A stretch of 64,000 nt of DNA from Levilactobacillus mulengensis (GTDB lineage Bacteria; Bacillota; Bacilli; Lactobacillales; Lactobacillaceae): assembly GCF_003946045.1 (NCBI RefSeq), contig NZ_RHNW01000001.1, positions 372,001 to 436,000 of the forward strand, read 5' to 3'. Numbering within the stretch: position 1 is the first letter of the stretch; every line of letters starts with the position of its first letter. Shown here in pieces: positions 27,983 through 55,807 of the stretch. Both the position numbers and the translations under genes were made by a program. The notes under the pieces were generated by a model. It was given only the letters and a program-made list of their open reading frames with translations, was not told the DNA's origin and searched no databases.

Positions 27983-30796
27983 TTATTTTTCTTCAAAACC
28001 TTCAGTTGCCGTTTCAGGGTAGTTGGCCCGAACGATAGCGGCACAGCGGGCACAGAAGTGTGGGTAGTCAGAATCGCTACCAACGTCTTCCTTGGTCAAC
28101 CGACAACGGTCACAGACCTCACCGGCAGCGGCGGAGACCTTCACGGCCATGTCACCAAAGTTCAGGGCGTCAGCTGGGGCTTGGTCCAACTTCGCAACGT
28201 CTAAACCGGAAACCAAGAGGATTTGTTGCACGTTTACGTTCAGATTGTCCAAGAGGCTCTGGGTCGCATCGTCCACGTACAAGTCCAGGTGGGCTTCAGC
28301 GGCTTTCCCGATTAACTTGGCGTCACGCGCTTCTTCCAAAGCCTTCAGAACGTGGCTCCGCAGGTCCATGAAGTGGTCCCAAGCGGATTTGTGTTCGTCG
28401 TCTTTGACTTCCACGGCGTCATCCATGTCCATCACAGCGGGCATTTCAGCCAATTGCACGAAGTCTTCTGGTTCTTTCAGGAAGCCCCAGATTTCTTCGG
28501 CCGTGTGTGGCAGGATTGGCGTGATCAACTTGGTCAAGGTCACGGCAATTTGGTAGAAGACGGTCTGCATGGACCGACGCGCAGCACTGTCTTCTGCCTC
28601 GATGTACAGCACATCCTTGGCAAAGTCGAGGTAGAACGCGGACAGGTCACTGACGACAAAGTTGATGAGTTCCTTGTAGATGTTCAGGAAGTCAAAGTTG
28701 TCGTAGTGGGCCTTGACGCTCTTGGTGAATTCATTCAGTTGATACAGCATGTGTCGGTCAACGGCAGTCAGCTGATCAAAGGCAACCGCATCCTTTTCGG
28801 GATCAAAGTCACTGGTGTTGGCCAACAGGTAACGCATCGTGTTCCGCAGTTTCTTGTAACTGTCGGAAATCTTCACGAAGGATTCCGTTGAGACCCGCAC
28901 GTCGGCTGAGGTATCCACGGAGGTTACCCAGAGACGCACGATGTCGGCACCCATCTTCTGGATGATTTCACTAGGCGCAATCGTGTTCCCGATGGACTTG
29001 GACATCTTGTGCCCGTCCTTGTCCAACGTGAACCCTTGTGACACGACCTGCTTGTATGGGGCCTTGCCAGTAGCGGCAACACTAGTGATCAAACTAGAGT
29101 TGAACCAGCCACGGTATTGGTCGGAACCTTCCAGGTAAAGGTCAGCTGGGAAGTCCAGGTAGTCGCGTTCGGCCAGCACACCCTGGTGAGACGAACCGGA
29201 GTCAAACCAAACATCCATGATGTCGGTTTCCTTCGTGAATTCGCCATTTGGTGAGTGTTCGCTGGTAAAGCCTTCGGGCAAGAGATCCTTGGCTTCACGC
29301 TTGAACCAGATGTTGGAACCGTACTTGCCAAATAAATCAGCCACGTGGTCGACCGTTTCTGGCGTGATGATAGCTTCACCGTCTTCACCATAGAAGATTG
29401 GCAGTGGCACACCCCAGACCCGTTGACGGGAGATAACCCAATCGCCACGGTCCTTGATCATGTTTTCCAAACGACGCTTGCCCCAATCTGGTTGGAACTT
29501 AACGTCTTGTAAGGAAGCCAAGATTTCATCACGGATCTTGTCCACGGACGCGAACCATTGTGGCGTTGCCCGGAAGATAACGGGCTTCTTGGTCCGCCAG
29601 TCAAATGGGTAACTGTGTTCGTATGGCATGTACTTCAGTAAGGCGTTGCTGGCCTTCAACTTGTCCAAGGCGATCTGGTTGGCATCTTCGTAGAACACGC
29701 CATCAAAGTCTTCGCCGGCTTCGGCGGTCATGTACCCTTGGTCGTTAACGGGCACCAAGACAGGCAGGTTGTAGAGCTTACCAACGTTAAAGTCGTCTTC
29801 CCCTAAACCTGGTGCGGTATGAACCAGACCAGTCCCGGAGTCAGTCGTCACGAAGTCGCCTAACATCACGACCAGCTTACGGTCAGCGATGAATGGGTGT
29901 TGGGCAATGATGTTGTCCATGTCTTGCCCCATGACGGTCTTCAAGACTTTGACGTCTTCCCAACCGAAACGTTCGGCATTTTCAGCCACTAAGTCGCTAG
30001 CCAAAACGAATTTCCGGTCTTCCCCAGCGGGTTGGACAACGGCGTATTCGATACCAGCATCGATGGTGATCCCTTCAGAACCAGGAATCGTCCAAGGCGT
30101 CGTGGTCCAAACGACCAGGTAAGTGTCATCGTCTAAGACACCCTTGCCGTCAACGACCTTTTCGCCGTAGAAAGCGGATGGTGACGTTACATCGTGGTAT
30201 TCCACTTCGGCTTCAGCCATCGCAGATTCAGATGACCATGACCAGTAAACGGGCTTCTTACCCTTGTAGATTAACCCACGCTTGGCAAATTCACCAAAGA
30301 CGCGGACTTCAGCGGCCTCAAATTCAGGCTTCAAAGTCAGGTAAGGATTGTCCCATTCGGCAGAAACACCCAGCCGTTTGAAACCATCGCGTTGTAAGTC
30401 GACTTGCTTCAAAGCGTAGTCGCGACAGAGGTCACGGAACTCAGCGGTCGACATCTTCTTGCGGTCGTAACCGGCCTTCGTCAATTGTTGTTCAATTGGC
30501 AGACCATGCGTATCCCAGCCGGGAACGTAAGGGGCACGGAACCCATTCATGGACTTGTAACGAACAATGATATCCTTGGAAATCTTGTTCATCGCATGAC
30601 CCATGTGGATGGGGCCGTTCGCGTATGGCGGCCCATCATGTAAAATAAATGATGGCTTCCCTTCGTTTAACTTTTGACGGGCTTCGTAAATCTTGTTGTC
30701 TGCCCAGGCTTTTTGCCGGTCAACTTCTTTGACTGGTAAATTACCGCGCATCTTAAACTTGGTCTTACCCAAGTTCAGCGTGTCTTTCACTCGCAT
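27983..30796 (-). CDS. ileS: Isoleucyl-tRNA synthetase
   Basis: 937 residues, normal length. HIGH motif as HMGH in [22 protein letters not shown] in [11 protein letters not shown], the editing domain with [12 protein letters not shown], and C-terminal zinc cysteines CDRC and CARC. It charges tRNA-Ile in the cytosol. ATG 30796 behind AAGGAGG. Expression should be governed by the Ile T-box at 31684-31925, which lies about 890 bases upstream with three cloverleaf repeats and no gene in between. Confidence 0.98.
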
Positions 30797-30928
30797 ACCG
30801 TATTTCCTCCTTAAAATTTGTTCCTCGGTTGGTGAACCGGTGAGCTCAAGCCGTTTCCCGACCTCAGCTCACCGGTCAACCCGACCGTTAATTCTCATTG
30901 CGTTAAAACCTTCGACTGGTCTTTGCCC

Positions 30929-31104
30929 TCCGCCTACCGGGGCGTGAAAATGGACCGGAACGCTGGTGGTAGGACGCTCGAAGCCAAAGAGCGGTCTTCA
31001 AGCTCGCTTTGAACCTCTGAGGACCGAGTTTCAAAGTCGCCATTTCCTGAGGAAACCTCAGGAAATCCACCGGCTGAGTCCATTTTCACACCCCTCCCGG
31101 CTAA
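30929..31104 (-). repeat. Cloverleaf intergenic repeat 14, subfamily B, in the ileS leader
   Basis: Hairpin ATTTCCTGAG/CTCAGGAAAT (10 perfect pairs), outer GTGAAAATGGACC with GGCTGAGTCCATTTTCAC, conserved CCAAAGAGCGGT loop. Lies between the T-box and ileS. Confidence 0.9.
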
Positions 31105-31220
31105 GACGAGCTGTTACTGTAAACCCCGTGTTACCGGTCAAGTTGACCGGCGAGGCTGGCATTCACTACAGGCAAAAGTGATCGGCCACTAAAACAAACT
31201 AACACTGGCACCACTAGCCT

Positions 31221-31409
31221 CAGCGACCAGAGGTGACTCAAGATGTCCTGCTGTGTCGATGGTGTTAACGACTGTTTTTTAGTCGTTTACAGCATGGGAC
31301 GACTTTGGAGACACGTGCCTTTCGTGGCTTCAAAGCGAGCCGGAAGACCGCCCCTCAGGCTGCAGGCGGTCCCCACAGCAGGGCATCTTGAAAGTCACCG
31401 CCGGGAGCG
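31221..31409 (+). repeat. Cloverleaf intergenic repeat 15, subfamily A, in the ileS leader
   Basis: Outer GGTGACT/AGTCACC and CAAGATG/CATCTTG; hairpin GTTAACGACT/AGTCGTTTAC; stem GACCGCC/GGCGGTC. Near-identical to repeat 16, 244 bases further on. Confidence 0.92.
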
Positions 31410-31464
31410 ACAATCAACACCCATACAAAACCAAGTGTTTGTTTGCCTTTCGGTTGGCCGTTGT

Positions 31465-31653
31465 GAGCGACCAGAGGTGACTCAAGATGTCCTGCTGTGT
31501 CGATGGTGTTAACGACTGTTCTTTAGTCGTTTACAGCATGGGACGACTTTGGAGACGCGTGCCTTTCGTGGCTTCAAAGCGAGCCGGAAGACCGCCCCTC
31601 AGGCTGCAGGCGTTCCCCATAGCAGGGCATCTTGAAAGTCACCGCCGGGAGCG
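31465..31653 (+). repeat. Cloverleaf intergenic repeat 16, subfamily A, tandem duplicate of 15
   Basis: Only a few substitutions separate it from repeat 15. The two tandem copies and repeat 14 fill the gap between the T-box and ileS. Confidence 0.92.
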
Positions 31654-31683
31654 CAGTCCCAACGACCAACAGAAAAGAGCAAA

Positions 31684-31925
31684 CAAAAAACGACTTGCCG
31701 CTAGGGACGAAGTCGTTTTCGTGGTACCACCCAAATTTAGCAGGCCGCGCAGCCGAAACGGCAAACGCAACCCACCCTCAAACGACGTAACGTGCCGTAC
31801 CCGCCACCGCTTACTAAGAGTTCAGCCGTGGAGCTTTGGGAATGATACCGGACAAAAAGAGCGGGCGTTAGCCTTCCACCATCGCTAACTCGCTAGTACC
31901 TTCTTTTTGAACAGTTCTTTTCTCA
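31684..31925 (-). promoter_or_regulatory. T-box riboswitch, isoleucine specific
   Basis: On the minus strand the T-box core GGGTGGTACCACG (31721-31733) precedes a terminator ACGACTT/AAGTCGT with TTTTTTG (31686-31716). Upstream lies a stem I with GTTAGC/GCTAAC tip and AAAAAG/CTTTTT base; its 3' side reads GGTATCATT, offering ATC (Ile) as specifier. Uncharged tRNA-Ile should stabilise the antiterminator and switch on ileS, the next gene downstream. Core and terminator are certain; the specifier placement is my reading. Confidence 0.88.
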
Positions 31926-31929
31926 GTGC

Positions 31930-32637
31930 CTAATTATTATCTTTGTCAAACTGTGGTTGGTCGTTGTCTGGGAAAATCACAACGGTTTCGCCATTGTCGT
32001 CCCCACTATCGGTCACAGGGGCTTCCGTTACCGGCGTCTCTTCAACCGGTTGGGATGCTTCTGAGTGTACGCCCTGAGGCCCGTCGTTGTCAAGCCGGTC
32101 ACCAACGACCTTCTTGATTTCTTCGTAGCTGGACATGGACCCTTCCTTTAACAGGCTGTCCCAGTCGTTAGACTTAACCACTTCCAACTGACTTTCCAGC
32201 ATGACTTGGAGCCGTTGCCGGAAGACCCGCGTGCTCTTCTTCAAGTCGTCGGTTTCAACGGCCAGCTTCTTGGCACGCTTGGAAGCTTCGTTCATGATCT
32301 GGTTACCCTTGTTCGTGGCTTCAGAAACGATGTCAGAGCTTTGCTTCTGGGCTTCGCGAATGATAATCTCAGATTCCTTTTGGGAGTTGGCCTTGACCTT
32401 ATCGGCGGCCTCTTGCGCAACCAAGATGGATTGGTTCAGGGAATCCTTCAAGTCGTTAAAGTACTTGAGCTTCTCGTTCGCTGCATCCAGTTGTTCCTCT
32501 AATTCTTTGTTGTGGTTCAACGTGATTTGGTAATCCTTGATGACTTGATCCAAGAAATCATTGACCTCGTCAACGTTGTAACCGCGCATCTTTGTGCCAA
32601 ACTCTTTATTGTGAATATCTAATGGACTTAATACCAT
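31930..32637 (-). CDS. divIVA: DivIVA-type cell division/polarity protein
   Basis: 235 residues. The N-terminal membrane-curvature domain reads LSPLDIHNKEFGTKMRGYNVDEVNDFLDQVIKDY, followed by long coiled coil (residues about 40-160) and an acidic disordered tail (ETPVTEAPVTDSGDDNGETVV). It marks septa and poles at negatively curved membrane. ATG 32637 with GGAGGG. Last gene of the ylmH-yggT-sepF-ftsZ string, 19 bases after ylmH. Confidence 0.96.
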   Translation of the reverse strand: MVLSPLDIHNKEFGTKMRGYNVDEVNDFLDQVIKDYQITLNHNKELEEQLDAANEKLKYFNDLKDSLNQSILVAQEAADKVKANSQKESEIIIREAQKQSSDIVSEATNKGNQIMNEASKRAKKLAVETDDLKKSTRVFRQRLQVMLESQLEVVKSNDWDSLLKEGSMSSYEEIKKVVGDRLDNDGPQGVHSEASQPVEETPVTEAPVTDSGDDNGETVVIFPDNDQPQFDKDNN

Positions 32638-47375: not shown

Positions 47376-47486
47376 CGCGCCTCCAGGTCGGTGAAAATTG
47401 GCCGGAACGCTGTGGGCGGACGGTGGGAGCCAAAGAGCGGTCTCCCACCTTGCTAAGCCTATTTTCACCGGCCCTCCGGCTGACAC
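47376..47486 (-). repeat. Cloverleaf intergenic repeat 21, subfamily B, internally deleted
   Basis: Both outer ends remain (GTGAAAATTGGCC on the left, GCCTATTTTCAC on the right) together with the GGTGGGAG/CTCCCACC stem and CCAAAGAGCGGT loop, but the other two hairpins are missing. Confidence 0.8.
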
Positions 47487-51811: not shown

Positions 51812-51995
51812 TTCGCCTCCGGCTTCCAGGGATTCCACCTGCTGTGGGGAGCGCTTCCAGCCTGAGGAGCGGTCTTCCAGCTCGCTTTGGAGCCGTGAAG
51901 CCCCCACGTCTCCAAAGTCGTCCCATGCCGTAAGCTGACAAAAGCGTCAGCTAACGCCATCGACACAGCTGGCTACATCCCTGGCTTCCTGCGGC
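51812..51995 (-). repeat. Cloverleaf intergenic repeat 24, subfamily A, upstream of trmL
   Basis: Outer CCAGGGAT/ATCCCTGG; hairpins AGCTGAC/GTCAGCT and CTTTGGAG/CTCCAAAG. The outer stem is a compensated change from the usual type. Confidence 0.88.
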
Positions 51996-52083
51996 TAGAC
52001 TTAATTTTTCAGGCCATTCATTAGCAGTCAACATTCTCTTCTTATCAAATTTTTGGCTCTACGTTGAATTATGTATCACTTTC

Positions 52084-52259: not shown

Positions 52260-52656
52260 TCACATTGATCTTGAATTTTACGGTTACCAGATTTGCTCCC
52301 TGTCAGACTTACTCTCCGTACCACCATCAATGTCTAGACGATTTTAACCAACCGTTACCTTAAACCAGCATATTATCCGCCAATCTATTCCACCCGTTTC
52401 ATACGCCGGCTACAGTTAGAGACAAGCAACTTACAATCATTCAAACATACGTGTAATAATTTTCCTCTAGAAACATATTTGTCAACCAAAACATAACGGT
52501 CCTTTCCTAACGTTCTACGTAATCCCTATCAAATCAACAATTACACAACCGAGGGTCACTTAACGAACAAACCAAAATACTAATGTTTAGCGTATAAACG
52601 TGTTAACTTATGGGTGTCGGAGGGGGCAATATTTCAGCCTGTTAGGAGGAAAAAAC
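52260..52656. other. Upstream region of LPQTG protein 1
   Basis: AT-rich. From about 52445 it is matched by 54160-54367 upstream of the paralogue (shared AGAAACATATTTGTCAAC, ACCAAAATACTAATGTT-like and TAGCGTATAAACGTGTTAAC), so a promoter-bearing leader was duplicated with the gene. Confidence 0.6.
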
Positions 52657-53898
52657 ATGCGAAGAATAACAAAATTTGCGCTACTGGTTACCTCCAGCCT
52701 GGCACTCATCTTTCTATTTGAATCACCCACCAAAGCCTATGCTCGTGTTGTTCCGTCTAAGGGAACCAGTGAACCTGAGGCTACTATCCTCACTGACCCT
52801 GGTCAAGAAGAGATGTCGCATACCGCGGTCTTACCCGAGGACGGCGTCTATGACGTTAAATATTTTTGGTCCATCGACAACACCGTCAAGGTCAATGCCG
52901 GTGACACCATGAATTTCTATATTCCCAAGAACGTCAACGTTACCCGGACCCGTTCCTTTAACATGGCCAGTTACGACGGCAGGGCTAGCGTTGGTAAAAC
53001 GACCGTCACCATCGGCAGTCACATCGGCGTCTGTACCTTCAACAATTTCTTTGCGACGCACAAGTACCGTAAGGAAGGTTACATTTCCTTTGAAGTCCGT
53101 GGTGCCGGCGAGCCCGAAGAAGTGACACCACCCGTGACCACCCCAGAAGAGCCTGGGACCGAGGAGCCTAATCCCGAAGAACCTGAACCCGAAGTTCCTG
53201 GGGTTGAGGAACCCGGTGTTGAGGAGCCCGGCGAGGAACCTTACCCTGAAGAGCCTGGAACTGAAGAACCTGGGGTTGAAGAGCCCGGAACTGAAGAGCC
53301 CGGAACTGAAGAACCCGGGACTGAAGAACCTGGCGAACCCGAAGCACCTGGTGTCGAAGAGCCTGGCGTTGAGGAACCTAACCCAGAAGATCCAGCACCA
53401 GAGGAACCTGCTGGCGAAAAGCCCGGGCCTTCCACGCCTGGCGTCACCTACCCACCCGTTAAGCCTGAACCAATCGTGCCAGAGCCCGAAACGCCCGTTG
53501 TTACGCCTGAAGATCCCGGCTATCCTAGCGTGACCGTTCCTGGCAAACCAACGAAGCCGACGTTCAACAAGCCCGGCAAGCCTGTTCACAAACCAACCGG
53601 GTCTAAACCAACTGGGTCGACCCAAACCGGTGGGCAAACCGCTGCCATCACCCCTAGCGGCCAAGGCAGTGGCACCGCTAGTCACCCCGCAACCAGCGCG
53701 GCCATCAATCACCACGCAACGGGACAATCGCCAACCACGACGACCCCCGCTACCGGTCACGCCGCAGCGACCCAGCCATCCTCGACCTTACCACAGACGG
53801 GTGATCACCAGTCTGCGGGCATCATCGTCGCTGGACTCGCCCTCTTGTTAGCTAGCTTGACCGGTGGTTTCCTCAGCTTACGGGATCGTAAGCAGTAA
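52657..53898 (+). CDS. LPQTG-anchored surface protein 1 with Pro/Glu-rich stalk
   Basis: 413 residues from ATG 52657 (AGGAGG upstream). Signal peptide to about residue 32 (FALLVTSSLALIFLF). The N-terminal domain (about 35-155; VKYFWSIDNTVKVNAGDTMNFYIPKNVNV) resembles the first Ig-like domain of Gram-positive adhesins. Then come roughly 25 short repeats of the kind EEPGTEEPGVEEPG, a PxxPxKP region, a Thr/Ser/His-rich stretch and the sortase signal LPQTGD with hydrophobic stretch and RDRKQ tail. It should be covalently wall-bound with a rod-like stalk. Ligand unknown. Paralogue at 54368. Confidence 0.92.
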   Translation: MRRITKFALLVTSSLALIFLFESPTKAYARVVPSKGTSEPEATILTDPGQEEMSHTAVLPEDGVYDVKYFWSIDNTVKVNAGDTMNFYIPKNVNVTRTRSFNMASYDGRASVGKTTVTIGSHIGVCTFNNFFATHKYRKEGYISFEVRGAGEPEEVTPPVTTPEEPGTEEPNPEEPEPEVPGVEEPGVEEPGEEPYPEEPGTEEPGVEEPGTEEPGTEEPGTEEPGEPEAPGVEEPGVEEPNPEDPAPEEPAGEKPGPSTPGVTYPPVKPEPIVPEPETPVVTPEDPGYPSVTVPGKPTKPTFNKPGKPVHKPTGSKPTGSTQTGGQTAAITPSGQGSGTASHPATSAAINHHATGQSPTTTTPATGHAAATQPSSTLPQTGDHQSAGIIVAGLALLLASLTGGFLSLRDRKQ

Positions 53899-53916
53899 TG
53901 ACCCCCACTCCCCCCT

Positions 53917-53972
53917 AAGGTCAAGGTCAATCAGCCGACCATTAGCTCGCTCTGCTGATTGGCCTTGACCTT
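53917..53972 (+). terminator. Long hairpin after LPQTG protein 1
   Basis: AAGGTCAAGGTCAATCAGC pairs with GCTGATTGGCCTTGACCTT around an 18-base loop. No T run follows, so it may protect the 3' end; the next hairpin is the better terminator. Confidence 0.6.
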
Positions 53973-53993
53973 ACCAAACCCATGTCACCACAC

Positions 53994-54027
53994 AAATGCC
54001 CCGAAGACCTTTGCCTTCGGGGCATTT
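53994..54027 (+). terminator. Terminator of LPQTG protein 1
   Basis: AAATGCCCCGAAG/CTTCGGGGCATTT hairpin. Its duplicate follows the second paralogue at 55585-55616. Confidence 0.75.
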
Positions 54028-54367
54028 GTCAGACTAATTCACCATCTTTTGATAGTTTCAGCCAGCCAACTTAACCGGCCTATTATCGGCCAAACTGTTT
54101 CACCTGTTTTGCACGTCGTTGGCGTTTAGAAACGGGCCACTCACACCCATCTCACCAGGCGTCTAATAGTTTTATGGCAGAAACATATTTGTCAACTAAA
54201 ACGTGATTACGCTTCTCCACCGCTCTACATGATCCCCGTCAAATCAACAATTTAACAACTAAGAGTCACTTAACGAACCAATCAAGATACTAATGTTCAG
54301 CGTATAAACGTGTTAACTTATGGGTATCGGAGAGGAGCAATATTTCAGTCTGATAGGAGGAGAAAAC

Positions 54368-55519
54368 ATGCGACGAAGAACAAAATTTGCGCTACTGGTT
54401 ACCTCCAGCCTAGCACTCATCTTTTTAGTTGACTCACCTACTCAAGCGTACGCACGGGTCATTCCGGCTAAGGGGACTAGCGAGCCTGACGCTAAGATTG
54501 TCAGTGTCCCCGGTGGGAAAGTCATGTCACACACCGCGGTCTTACCTGCAGACAAGGTCTACAACGTTAAGTACAGTTGGTCCATCAGCCAAGCCGAAAA
54601 GGTCAATGCTGGTGACACCATGGATTTCTATATTCCCAAGAACGTCAACATTACTCGGACCCGCTCCTTTGACATGAGCAGTTACGACGGCAAGGCCATC
54701 ATTGGCAAATGGGACGTTACCATCGGCAGTCACGTCGGCGTCTGTACCTTCACTAATTTCTTTGCGACGCACGATTACCTGAAGAGTGGTTATATTTCCG
54801 TTGAAGTCTATGGCGCTGGTCAGTCCGAAGAAGTTGTCCCACCAACCAACCCCGAAGAACCCGGAACCGGTGAACCAGGCCCTGAGGAACCCGGGCCTGA
54901 AGTTCCTGGCATTGAAGAACCCGGTGAGCCTGAAGCACCTGGTGTCGAAGAACCGGGGACCGAAGAACCTGGTGGTGAAAAACCCGGGACCCAAGAACCT
55001 GGTGGGCCTGAAGCACCCGGTGTTGAAGAACCGGGGACTGAAAAACCTGGTGGCGAAAAGCCCGGGCCTTCCACGCCTGGCGTCACCTACCCACCCGTTA
55101 AGCCTGAGCCAATCGTGCCAGAACCCGAAAGCCCAGCCGTTACGCCTGATGACCCCGGCTACCCTGGTGTAACTGTCCCCGGCAAGCCAACGAAGCCAAC
55201 GTTCAACCAGCCTGGGAAGCCGATTCTCAAACCAACCGGGGGAACGCAAACCGGTGGTCAAACCGCAACCATCACGTCTGGTCATGGCAGTAGCAACGCT
55301 AACCCTCCCGCAACCAACACGGCCAGCAATCACCACGCAACAGGTCAATCGCCAACTATGACCCCCGCAGCCGGTCACGCCGCAGCGACCTATCCAGCCA
55401 CGACCTTACCACAGACTGGCGATCACCAATCCGCTGGCAGCCTCGTTGCCGGACTCGCCCTCTTGTTGACCAGCTTGACCGGTGGTGTCCTCAGCCTACG
55501 AAATCGTCAGCATCAATGA
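54368..55519 (+). CDS. LPQTG-anchored surface protein 2, tandem paralogue
   Basis: 383 residues from ATG 54368 (AGGAGG upstream). Same plan as the preceding gene: nearly identical signal peptide, Ig-like N-domain (VKYSWSISQAEKVNAGDTMDFYIPKNVNITRTRSFDMSSYDGKAIIGKW), shorter Pro/Glu stalk built on EEPGTEEPGGEKPG and GPEAPG units, PxKP region, then LPQTGD and RNRQHQ. The start codons of the two genes are 1,711 bases apart and leader plus terminator are duplicated too. Stalk repeats differ in number and type, as expected from repeat slippage. Confidence 0.92.
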   Translation: MRRRTKFALLVTSSLALIFLVDSPTQAYARVIPAKGTSEPDAKIVSVPGGKVMSHTAVLPADKVYNVKYSWSISQAEKVNAGDTMDFYIPKNVNITRTRSFDMSSYDGKAIIGKWDVTIGSHVGVCTFTNFFATHDYLKSGYISVEVYGAGQSEEVVPPTNPEEPGTGEPGPEEPGPEVPGIEEPGEPEAPGVEEPGTEEPGGEKPGTQEPGGPEAPGVEEPGTEKPGGEKPGPSTPGVTYPPVKPEPIVPEPESPAVTPDDPGYPGVTVPGKPTKPTFNQPGKPILKPTGGTQTGGQTATITSGHGSSNANPPATNTASNHHATGQSPTMTPAAGHAAATYPATTLPQTGDHQSAGSLVAGLALLLTSLTGGVLSLRNRQHQ

Positions 55520-55584
55520 CGTCAGCCGTCCATTAGCTCGCTCTACCGACTAGCCTTAACCTTACCAAACCCATGTCACGACAC

Positions 55585-55616
55585 AAATGCCCCGAAGGCA
55601 ACCGTCTTCGGGGCAT
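55585..55616 (+). terminator. Terminator of LPQTG protein 2
   Basis: AAATGCCCCGAAG/CTTCGGGGCATT hairpin, duplicate of 53994-54027. Confidence 0.75.
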
Positions 55617-55807
55617 TCGCTGACTATTTTAGGGCAAGAAAAAAGCAGCTCCTCGGTGTGGGCACGGCGAGGGACTACTTTAGTGAAGTGCTACTTGTCA
55701 GCCACCAACAGCTTTCACTGATGTTAACTGCCAAACGATTTCTCATCGATTAATATAACACTGTCCTGTCAGGTTCACAAGCATTTTTTATCGGTTTTTT
55801 AAACGTT

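Follow-up and report, generated by a model that had tools for sequence, protein, structure and literature searches.

An intact isoleucine T-box probably controls the isoleucyl-tRNA synthetase gene ileS in this Levilactobacillus genome, and the three cloverleaf repeats that separate the switch from the gene are probably tolerated passengers, with selection acting on the last 90 nt before ileS. The locus lies in the 64-kb window, by which we mean the whole stretch of 64,000 nucleotides that was analyzed. Read along the minus strand, divIVA is followed by the Ile T-box, its terminator, 888 nt, and ileS. The features of the locus are as follows.

31930–32637, minus strand: divIVA, the gene upstream of the T-box (ORF call; Pfam DivIVA, E 1e-43)
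31700–31935, minus strand: Ile T-box leader, specifier ATC followed by A (RF00230, 64.8 bits, E 1.8e-13)
31720–31732, minus strand: T-box core GGGTGGTACCACG with the UGGU bulge (read from the sequence; kept in relatives)
about 31685–31717, minus strand: T-box terminator hairpin and U-run (read from the sequence)
31463–31647, minus strand: cloverleaf repeat, type A, first of a tandem pair (nhmmer, self-comparison)
31219–31403, minus strand: cloverleaf repeat, type A, second of the tandem pair (nhmmer, self-comparison, fold)
30935–31107, plus strand: cloverleaf repeat, type B, in the opposite orientation (nhmmer, model, fold)
30826–30887, minus strand: ileS-proximal RNA hairpin, single copy, Levilactobacillus (pattern, alignment, fold, model R2)
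30806–30812, minus strand: ileS ribosome-binding site AAGGAGG (invariant columns in 29 leaders)
27983–30796, minus strand: ileS, isoleucyl-tRNA synthetase (ORF call; Pfam tRNA-synt_1, E 1.5e-145)

The ileS T-box covered the RF00230 model end to end (positions 1–219 of 219), and the end of divIVA overlapped the start of the match. Its score was below the gathering score of the family (93), which explains why this T-box was absent from the default Rfam scan. The distance to the ileS ATG was 888 nt from the end of the U-run and 932 nt from the core. The sequence-only reading, an earlier interpretation of the same letters, had placed ileS about 890 bases from a T-box that directly follows divIVA, with three cloverleaf repeats in between. 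This layout was borne out, and the core and terminator coordinates given there agreed with ours within one or two bases. Two other genomes encode ileS proteins with 99% and 98% identity to that of the window. The C terminus of DivIVA (ETVVIFPDND; window 31930–32000) was conserved in the genus immediately before the T-box, and this stretch may overlap the leader promoter. In the window, the sole Rfam match above gathering score was RF01065 (23S-methyl RNA motif; 55637–55737, minus strand).

The type-A tandem pair in the gap showed 98% identity over 188 nt. Folded on the ileS strand, gap repeats reached −83.9 and −87.4 kcal/mol (z −6.4 and −7.1). Besides the T-box, no Rfam 15 family was matched up to E 5 in 30700–32000. 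Between the T-box terminator and ileS, no run of at least five T was seen in the window; one such run each was found in 6/29 leaders, and therefore no depletion of intrinsic termination signals is claimed.

For the comparison of leaders, 35 Levilactobacillus genomes were searched, of which 30 gave loci; 29 leaders were counted, and L030 was left out because its sequence starts 28 bases before ileS. The results showed that the T-box was kept in 29/29 leaders, with or without repeats (ATC specifier, TGGTACCACG, and U-run). The distance from the core to divIVA was 182–201 nt in the 28 leaders with a divIVA end found. A comparison with relatives had been proposed in the sequence-only reading, and its outcome was a retained T-box behind which the repeat tract comes and goes, with a core-to-ATG distance of 160–1184 nt across the 29 leaders. 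Repeats were present in 15/29 leaders, 12 detected by nhmmer and three more by R1, a covariance model of type B. On the ileS tree, at least six repeat gains or losses were needed, five of them forced by well-supported branches, and the leaders L004, L010, and L019 contained apparent collapsed remnants of repeats when read by eye. Both repeat orientations occurred within a single leader. Tandem copies were 92–95% alike in three species, whereas copies occupying one position in sister species were 61–93% alike, suggesting duplication of copies or conversion between them. In L002, the fourth species, tandem copies were just 60% alike, indicating that conversion is not uniform. Another hairpin repeat type was observed beside or in place of the cloverleafs in the ileS leaders L018, L020, and L005. 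In several species, repeats had also entered the stretch that separates ileS from the cold-shock gene (L022, 4717–4897; ileS downstream flanks of L025, L026, and L027).

To place the ileS leader among other T-box leaders, 51 T-box loci of two species were compared, and repeats lay between T-box and gene in two of them, both ileS. This genome had 26 T-box matches, with repeats before the gene at ileS only. The other 25 matches ended no more than 183 nt from the called start of the gene with no repeat between, whereas ileS was 904 nt from its match end with three repeats. In the second species (G003), 24/25 T-boxes were 25–126 nt from the gene without a repeat; the exception was ileS, with two repeats and 738 nt from core to ATG. 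These distances rest on a simple start caller, apart from that of G003 ileS, which was taken from the core-to-ATG reading since the caller chose a false ORF within the leader (15 nt). Independent of gene starts, a search of the 1500 nt downstream of the 51 T-boxes found repeats at ileS in both genomes and otherwise at L144 and L213 only, at least 980 nt away and behind the regulated gene. On the upstream side, a repeat lay within 200 nt in 8/51 loci (L133, L134, L140, L153, L156, L197, L200, and L213), indicating that repeats do not avoid T-boxes as such.

The same pattern was observed in a second genus. In Lactiplantibacillus nangangensis, where 30 loci of 34 T-box matches were examined by model and profile searches, repeats of the cloverleaf family stood before the gene at ileS only. 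They formed an inverted pair (E 4e-16 and 2e-15), and the ileS leader of L. daoliensis carried an inverted pair too. By leader length, ileS was not unique in L. nangangensis, as the crude start caller gave 246–892 nt for six other T-boxes. In genera other than Levilactobacillus, the core-to-ATG distance was 60–129 nt in 34 of the 38 loci with both landmarks, 11 further loci without a landmark being left out. The four exceptions (159, 240, 683, and 713 nt) were all Lactiplantibacillus.

The repeats belong to one family with a unit size of 150–190 nt and a cloverleaf fold; types A, B, and C are labels of this analysis for clusters within it. By nhmmer, 70 copies were found in 456 kb of the contig. 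The window was denser in copies (26 in 64 kb, more than chance would give) than the other 392 kb read (44), and its count is therefore not to be scaled to the whole genome. Although ORFs of at least 150 aa cover 77% of the 456 kb, 4/70 copies overlapped such ORFs. The copies formed 46 arrays, comprising 28 single copies, four same-strand pairs, and 14 arrays with both orientations, and the mixed arrays ran plus then minus in 14/14 and minus then plus in none. R1 found the family in at least 33/35 Levilactobacillus genomes, the best 79 of 350 and of 301 candidates having been scored in the two matchless genomes (G022 and G031). In the Lactobacillaceae sample, R1 found it in at least 35/151 genomes and at least 10/40 genera, Levilactobacillus included. 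The Rfam scan of the window listed no repeat family, and a literature search by titles and the starts of abstracts, with few subscription journals, returned no description of the cloverleaf repeats or of the ileS hairpin.

Two copies in the window show how single repeats differ. At 51817–52001 there is an extra type-A copy that is absent from two close relatives; in the comparison with these relatives, no clear target-site duplication, which along with terminal inverted repeats marks MITEs, was seen at this single candidate, whose flanks have diverged. At 47382–47486 there is a 105-nt form, about 70 nt shorter, that is matched end to end by the type B model; this form, like comparably short ones in L111 and L121, has the look of a collapsed palindrome. 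Elsewhere in the window, 52363–55617 contains two duplicated stretches with 15-base repeats; judged by these repeats, surface proteins rich in proline and glutamate may be encoded there.

When a G-C pair of an RNA helix is replaced by A-U, G-U can serve as the intermediate, so that G-U pairs are common and A-C mismatches rare. The T-box of the 29 leaders behaved in this way, with G-U in 11.4% and A-C in 0.8% of helix cells when one helix judged spurious was left out (15.0% G-U with that helix). The consensus folds of the repeats were rich in two-sided changes (29 of 41 pairs in type A and 34 of 52 pairs in type B). However, G-U was scarce in the repeats compared with the T-box, amounting to 1.8% in type A, with A-C at 1.7% (1.1% and 1.3% without one ambiguous helix), and to 0.6% in type B, with A-C at 2.7% (A-C to G-U cells, 25 to 6). 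Fisher tests of repeats against the T-box gave p < 1e-8, with related sequences treated as independent. RNAalifold counts G-U as a pair, so helix choice should not lower the G-U share. Because two-sided changes are abundant and G-U is scarce, the repeats appear, as far as sequence can tell, to be maintained as DNA hairpins or corrected to that form again and again. The A-C excess over G-U in type B could reflect weak RNA selection acting on the complement of the modeled strand, but it is far below the T-box level. Since a single leader can contain both orientations, the repeats are unlikely to act in the control of ileS as strand-specific RNA. The sequence-only reading had left two options, namely repeats that the leader tolerates or repeats that bring a further layer of control or RNA processing. 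Tolerance is upheld by the intact T-box in 29/29 leaders, the gain and loss of repeats, their two orientations, and the DNA-type covariation; added control or processing is unsupported by the sequence. The count of G-U against A-C cells, calibrated on the riboswitch of the same leaders, provides a cheap test for telling DNA-hairpin repeats from RNA elements.

The last part of the leader behaved differently from the repeats in these comparisons. The hairpin at 30826–30887, 30–91 nt before ileS, had a predicted energy of −44.1 kcal/mol (z −7.9). Its exact pattern occurred once per genome in 33/35 Levilactobacillus genomes and lay just upstream of the located ileS in 32/33, the contig of the remaining one (G006) being broken there; the other two genomes had hairpin variants (L014 and L026). 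Model R2 of the hairpin matched 6/151 family genomes, all six Levilactobacillus, and, with the stricter filters for large searches, had no match in the other 39 of the 40 genera sampled. In all six genomes, R2 matched both strands because the hairpin is near-palindromic. In Rfam 15, no match for the hairpin was found up to E 5. The outer stem was almost invariant, and the inner stem varied with two-sided changes. The hairpin contained 23 two-sided cells, a value that 0/500 shuffles reached, and two of five covariation measures were weak (33/500 and 87/500 shuffles as high) because most of the hairpin does not vary. Two G-U pairs were near-fixed (28/29 and 27/29 sequences), indicating that the hairpin behaves as an RNA of the ileS strand. 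RNAalifold also pairs the 3′ flank ACCG of the hairpin with CGGT just before the ATG; this predicted pairing, in which no two-sided changes were seen, is at most a lead for translational control. The hairpin was equally conserved in leaders without repeats and therefore did not arise because of them, and two Lactiplantibacillus species accept repeats without it, indicating that it is not needed for tolerance. The hairpin, which the sequence-only reading had overlooked, is a better candidate than the repeats for a second control or stability element, and its role, we infer, may be insulation of the ribosome-binding site or protection of processed 5′ ends.

According to the explanation that we favor, uncharged tRNA-Ile would turn the terminator at 31685–31717 off, as expected from the conserved features of the T-box family, and transcription would run on to ileS. 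The 888-nt stretch would be a landing site for dispersed cloverleaf DNA repeats, which would often come in inverted pairs, multiply as tandem copies, undergo conversion between copies, and collapse. Transcription that ends at the T-box would never reach the repeats, and read-through RNA would carry them as an untranslated tract. Selection would act on the final 90 nt, where an extended RNA hairpin with a nearly fixed sequence precedes an exposed ribosome-binding site. Most likely, the hairpin would fold locally and keep upstream structure off the ribosome-binding site, and, should ileS mRNA be processed, it would cap the resulting 5′ end. Such a role would help explain why, among the T-box leaders examined, only this one puts up with repeats.

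The favored explanation was weighed against rival readings. That the T-box serves a different, missed gene in the gap is extremely improbable. The gap has eight ORFs of at least 40 aa, the longest of up to 133 aa and antisense to ileS, which speaks for such a gene; however, four of the eight, the two longest included, were tested and gave no Pfam match at E 0.01, in line with the earlier statement that no gene fills the gap. In addition, the specifier is an Ile codon, and in other genera divIVA is followed by T-box and ileS at the short core-to-ATG distance found in 34/38 loci. The missed gene that the sequence-only reading had named as its own refuting case was thus not found, either by Pfam on the ORFs or in other genera. 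A separate promoter between the repeats and ileS, which would drive most expression so that T-box and repeats hardly matter, is somewhat less far-fetched and still quite unlikely. Promoters were scanned with a simple sigma-A weight scan (29 leaders, 60 shuffles per leader). Between terminator and ATG, the best site was no better than shuffles (p < 0.05) in 28/29 leaders, and no promoter-like site downstream of the T-box was conserved in position among the 29 leaders. The exception, L016, has a good consensus match inside its gap. A strong promoter just upstream of the T-box was not found either (3/29 leaders reached p 0.05), and weak ones are possible. The sole promoter-like consensus site on the ileS strand in 30700–32200 lies inside divIVA (32093–32064), outside the stretch covered by the 29-leader shuffle scan. 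The L016 match and these last two observations favor a separate promoter, but the T-box is kept in 29/29 leaders read, and the promoter just upstream of ileS that had been named as the other refuting case did not appear as a consistent site.

A more serious rival, though an unlikely one in our estimation, is that the repeats add control by RNA processing, their stems being cut (e.g., by RNase III) and the hairpin guarding the new 5′ end. The repeat folds are very stable, the protective hairpin sits where it would be needed, and repeats entered the ileS leader in two genera. Precedents are the evidence that transcribed Correia elements are targeted by RNase III (PMC3049150) and the reported in vitro cleavage of the Bacillus subtilis thrS T-box leader by RNases J, Y, and E at a single site (PMC3542257). 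The thrS cleavage, taken together with structured repeats that can become RNase targets once transcribed, suggests that the repeats may affect the fate of the mRNA. However, repeats are absent from 14/29 leaders of the genus and come and go, their number, subtype, and orientation vary between species, and their covariation signature is of the DNA type. Processing may occur, but a conserved regulatory step is unlikely. The entry of repeats into the same T-box leader in two genera could mean that they are useful there, and control of ileS by the repeats is possible from the sequence.

A broader proposal is tentative, and we would give it somewhat more credit than processing. It combines an undescribed family of cloverleaf DNA hairpins, spreading as inverted pairs, with an RNA hairpin restricted to Levilactobacillus that would uncouple ileS translation or mRNA stability from the upstream leader and so make this leader a repeated landing site. 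In this proposal, the family occurs in at least 10/40 sampled Lactobacillaceae genera, and the enzyme that would spread it is hypothetical. The locus also represents a natural experiment on T-box modularity: within the genus, switch and gene lie between 160 and 1184 nt apart, whereas the switch itself and the gene-proximal hairpin are fixed. With a variable distance and a fixed switch, effects of leader length and structure on antitermination are directly testable.

The repeats were compared with known repeat systems. In PMC3116915, REPINs or BIMEs, the REP doublets of Pseudomonas and Escherichia coli, are described as dispersed extragenic palindromic units that form inverted doublets and tandem arrays, and in PMC3733652, REP units are palindromes of 20–40 bp with a GTAG or CGTC tag. 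The repeats studied here share the extragenic location and the inverted doublets (14/14 mixed arrays plus then minus), but they are cloverleaf units of 150–190 nt rather than short REP units, and 28/46 arrays are single copies. The genome contains five Y1_Tnp genes, as a RAYT-like neighbor would be, and 0/5 had a repeat within 1.5 kb, so that repeats driven by a RAYT are unsupported. Two defining features of REPINs and BIMEs, short REP units and a neighboring Y1 gene, are thus lacking. The BOX, RUP, and SPRITE elements of pneumococcus, structured intergenic repeats of which some are transcribed with genes according to PMC3049150, share with the present repeats that they are structured and lie between genes of a Lactobacillales genome. 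BOX is modular, whereas the repeats here are cloverleafs and often inverted pairs, a relation judged by the Rfam scan only.

The available parts of PMC1590033 and PMC2267715 name L. johnsonii as the sole lactobacillus, and in that of PMC2494555 the words "distance" and "brevis" are absent from the text. The B. subtilis thrS gene shares the T-box leader, but the reported cut lies in that leader, whereas here a cut is hypothetical and would lie within the repeats. With the RF00230 Ile T-box, the ileS leader shares the full-length match, the ATC specifier, the UGGU core, the terminator, and the synthetase gene downstream; it differs in its score below gathering, the 888 nt with repeats, and a core-to-ATG distance of 932 nt vs 60–129 nt elsewhere (34/38). 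Judged by these sequence features, the switch itself is an ordinary T-box.
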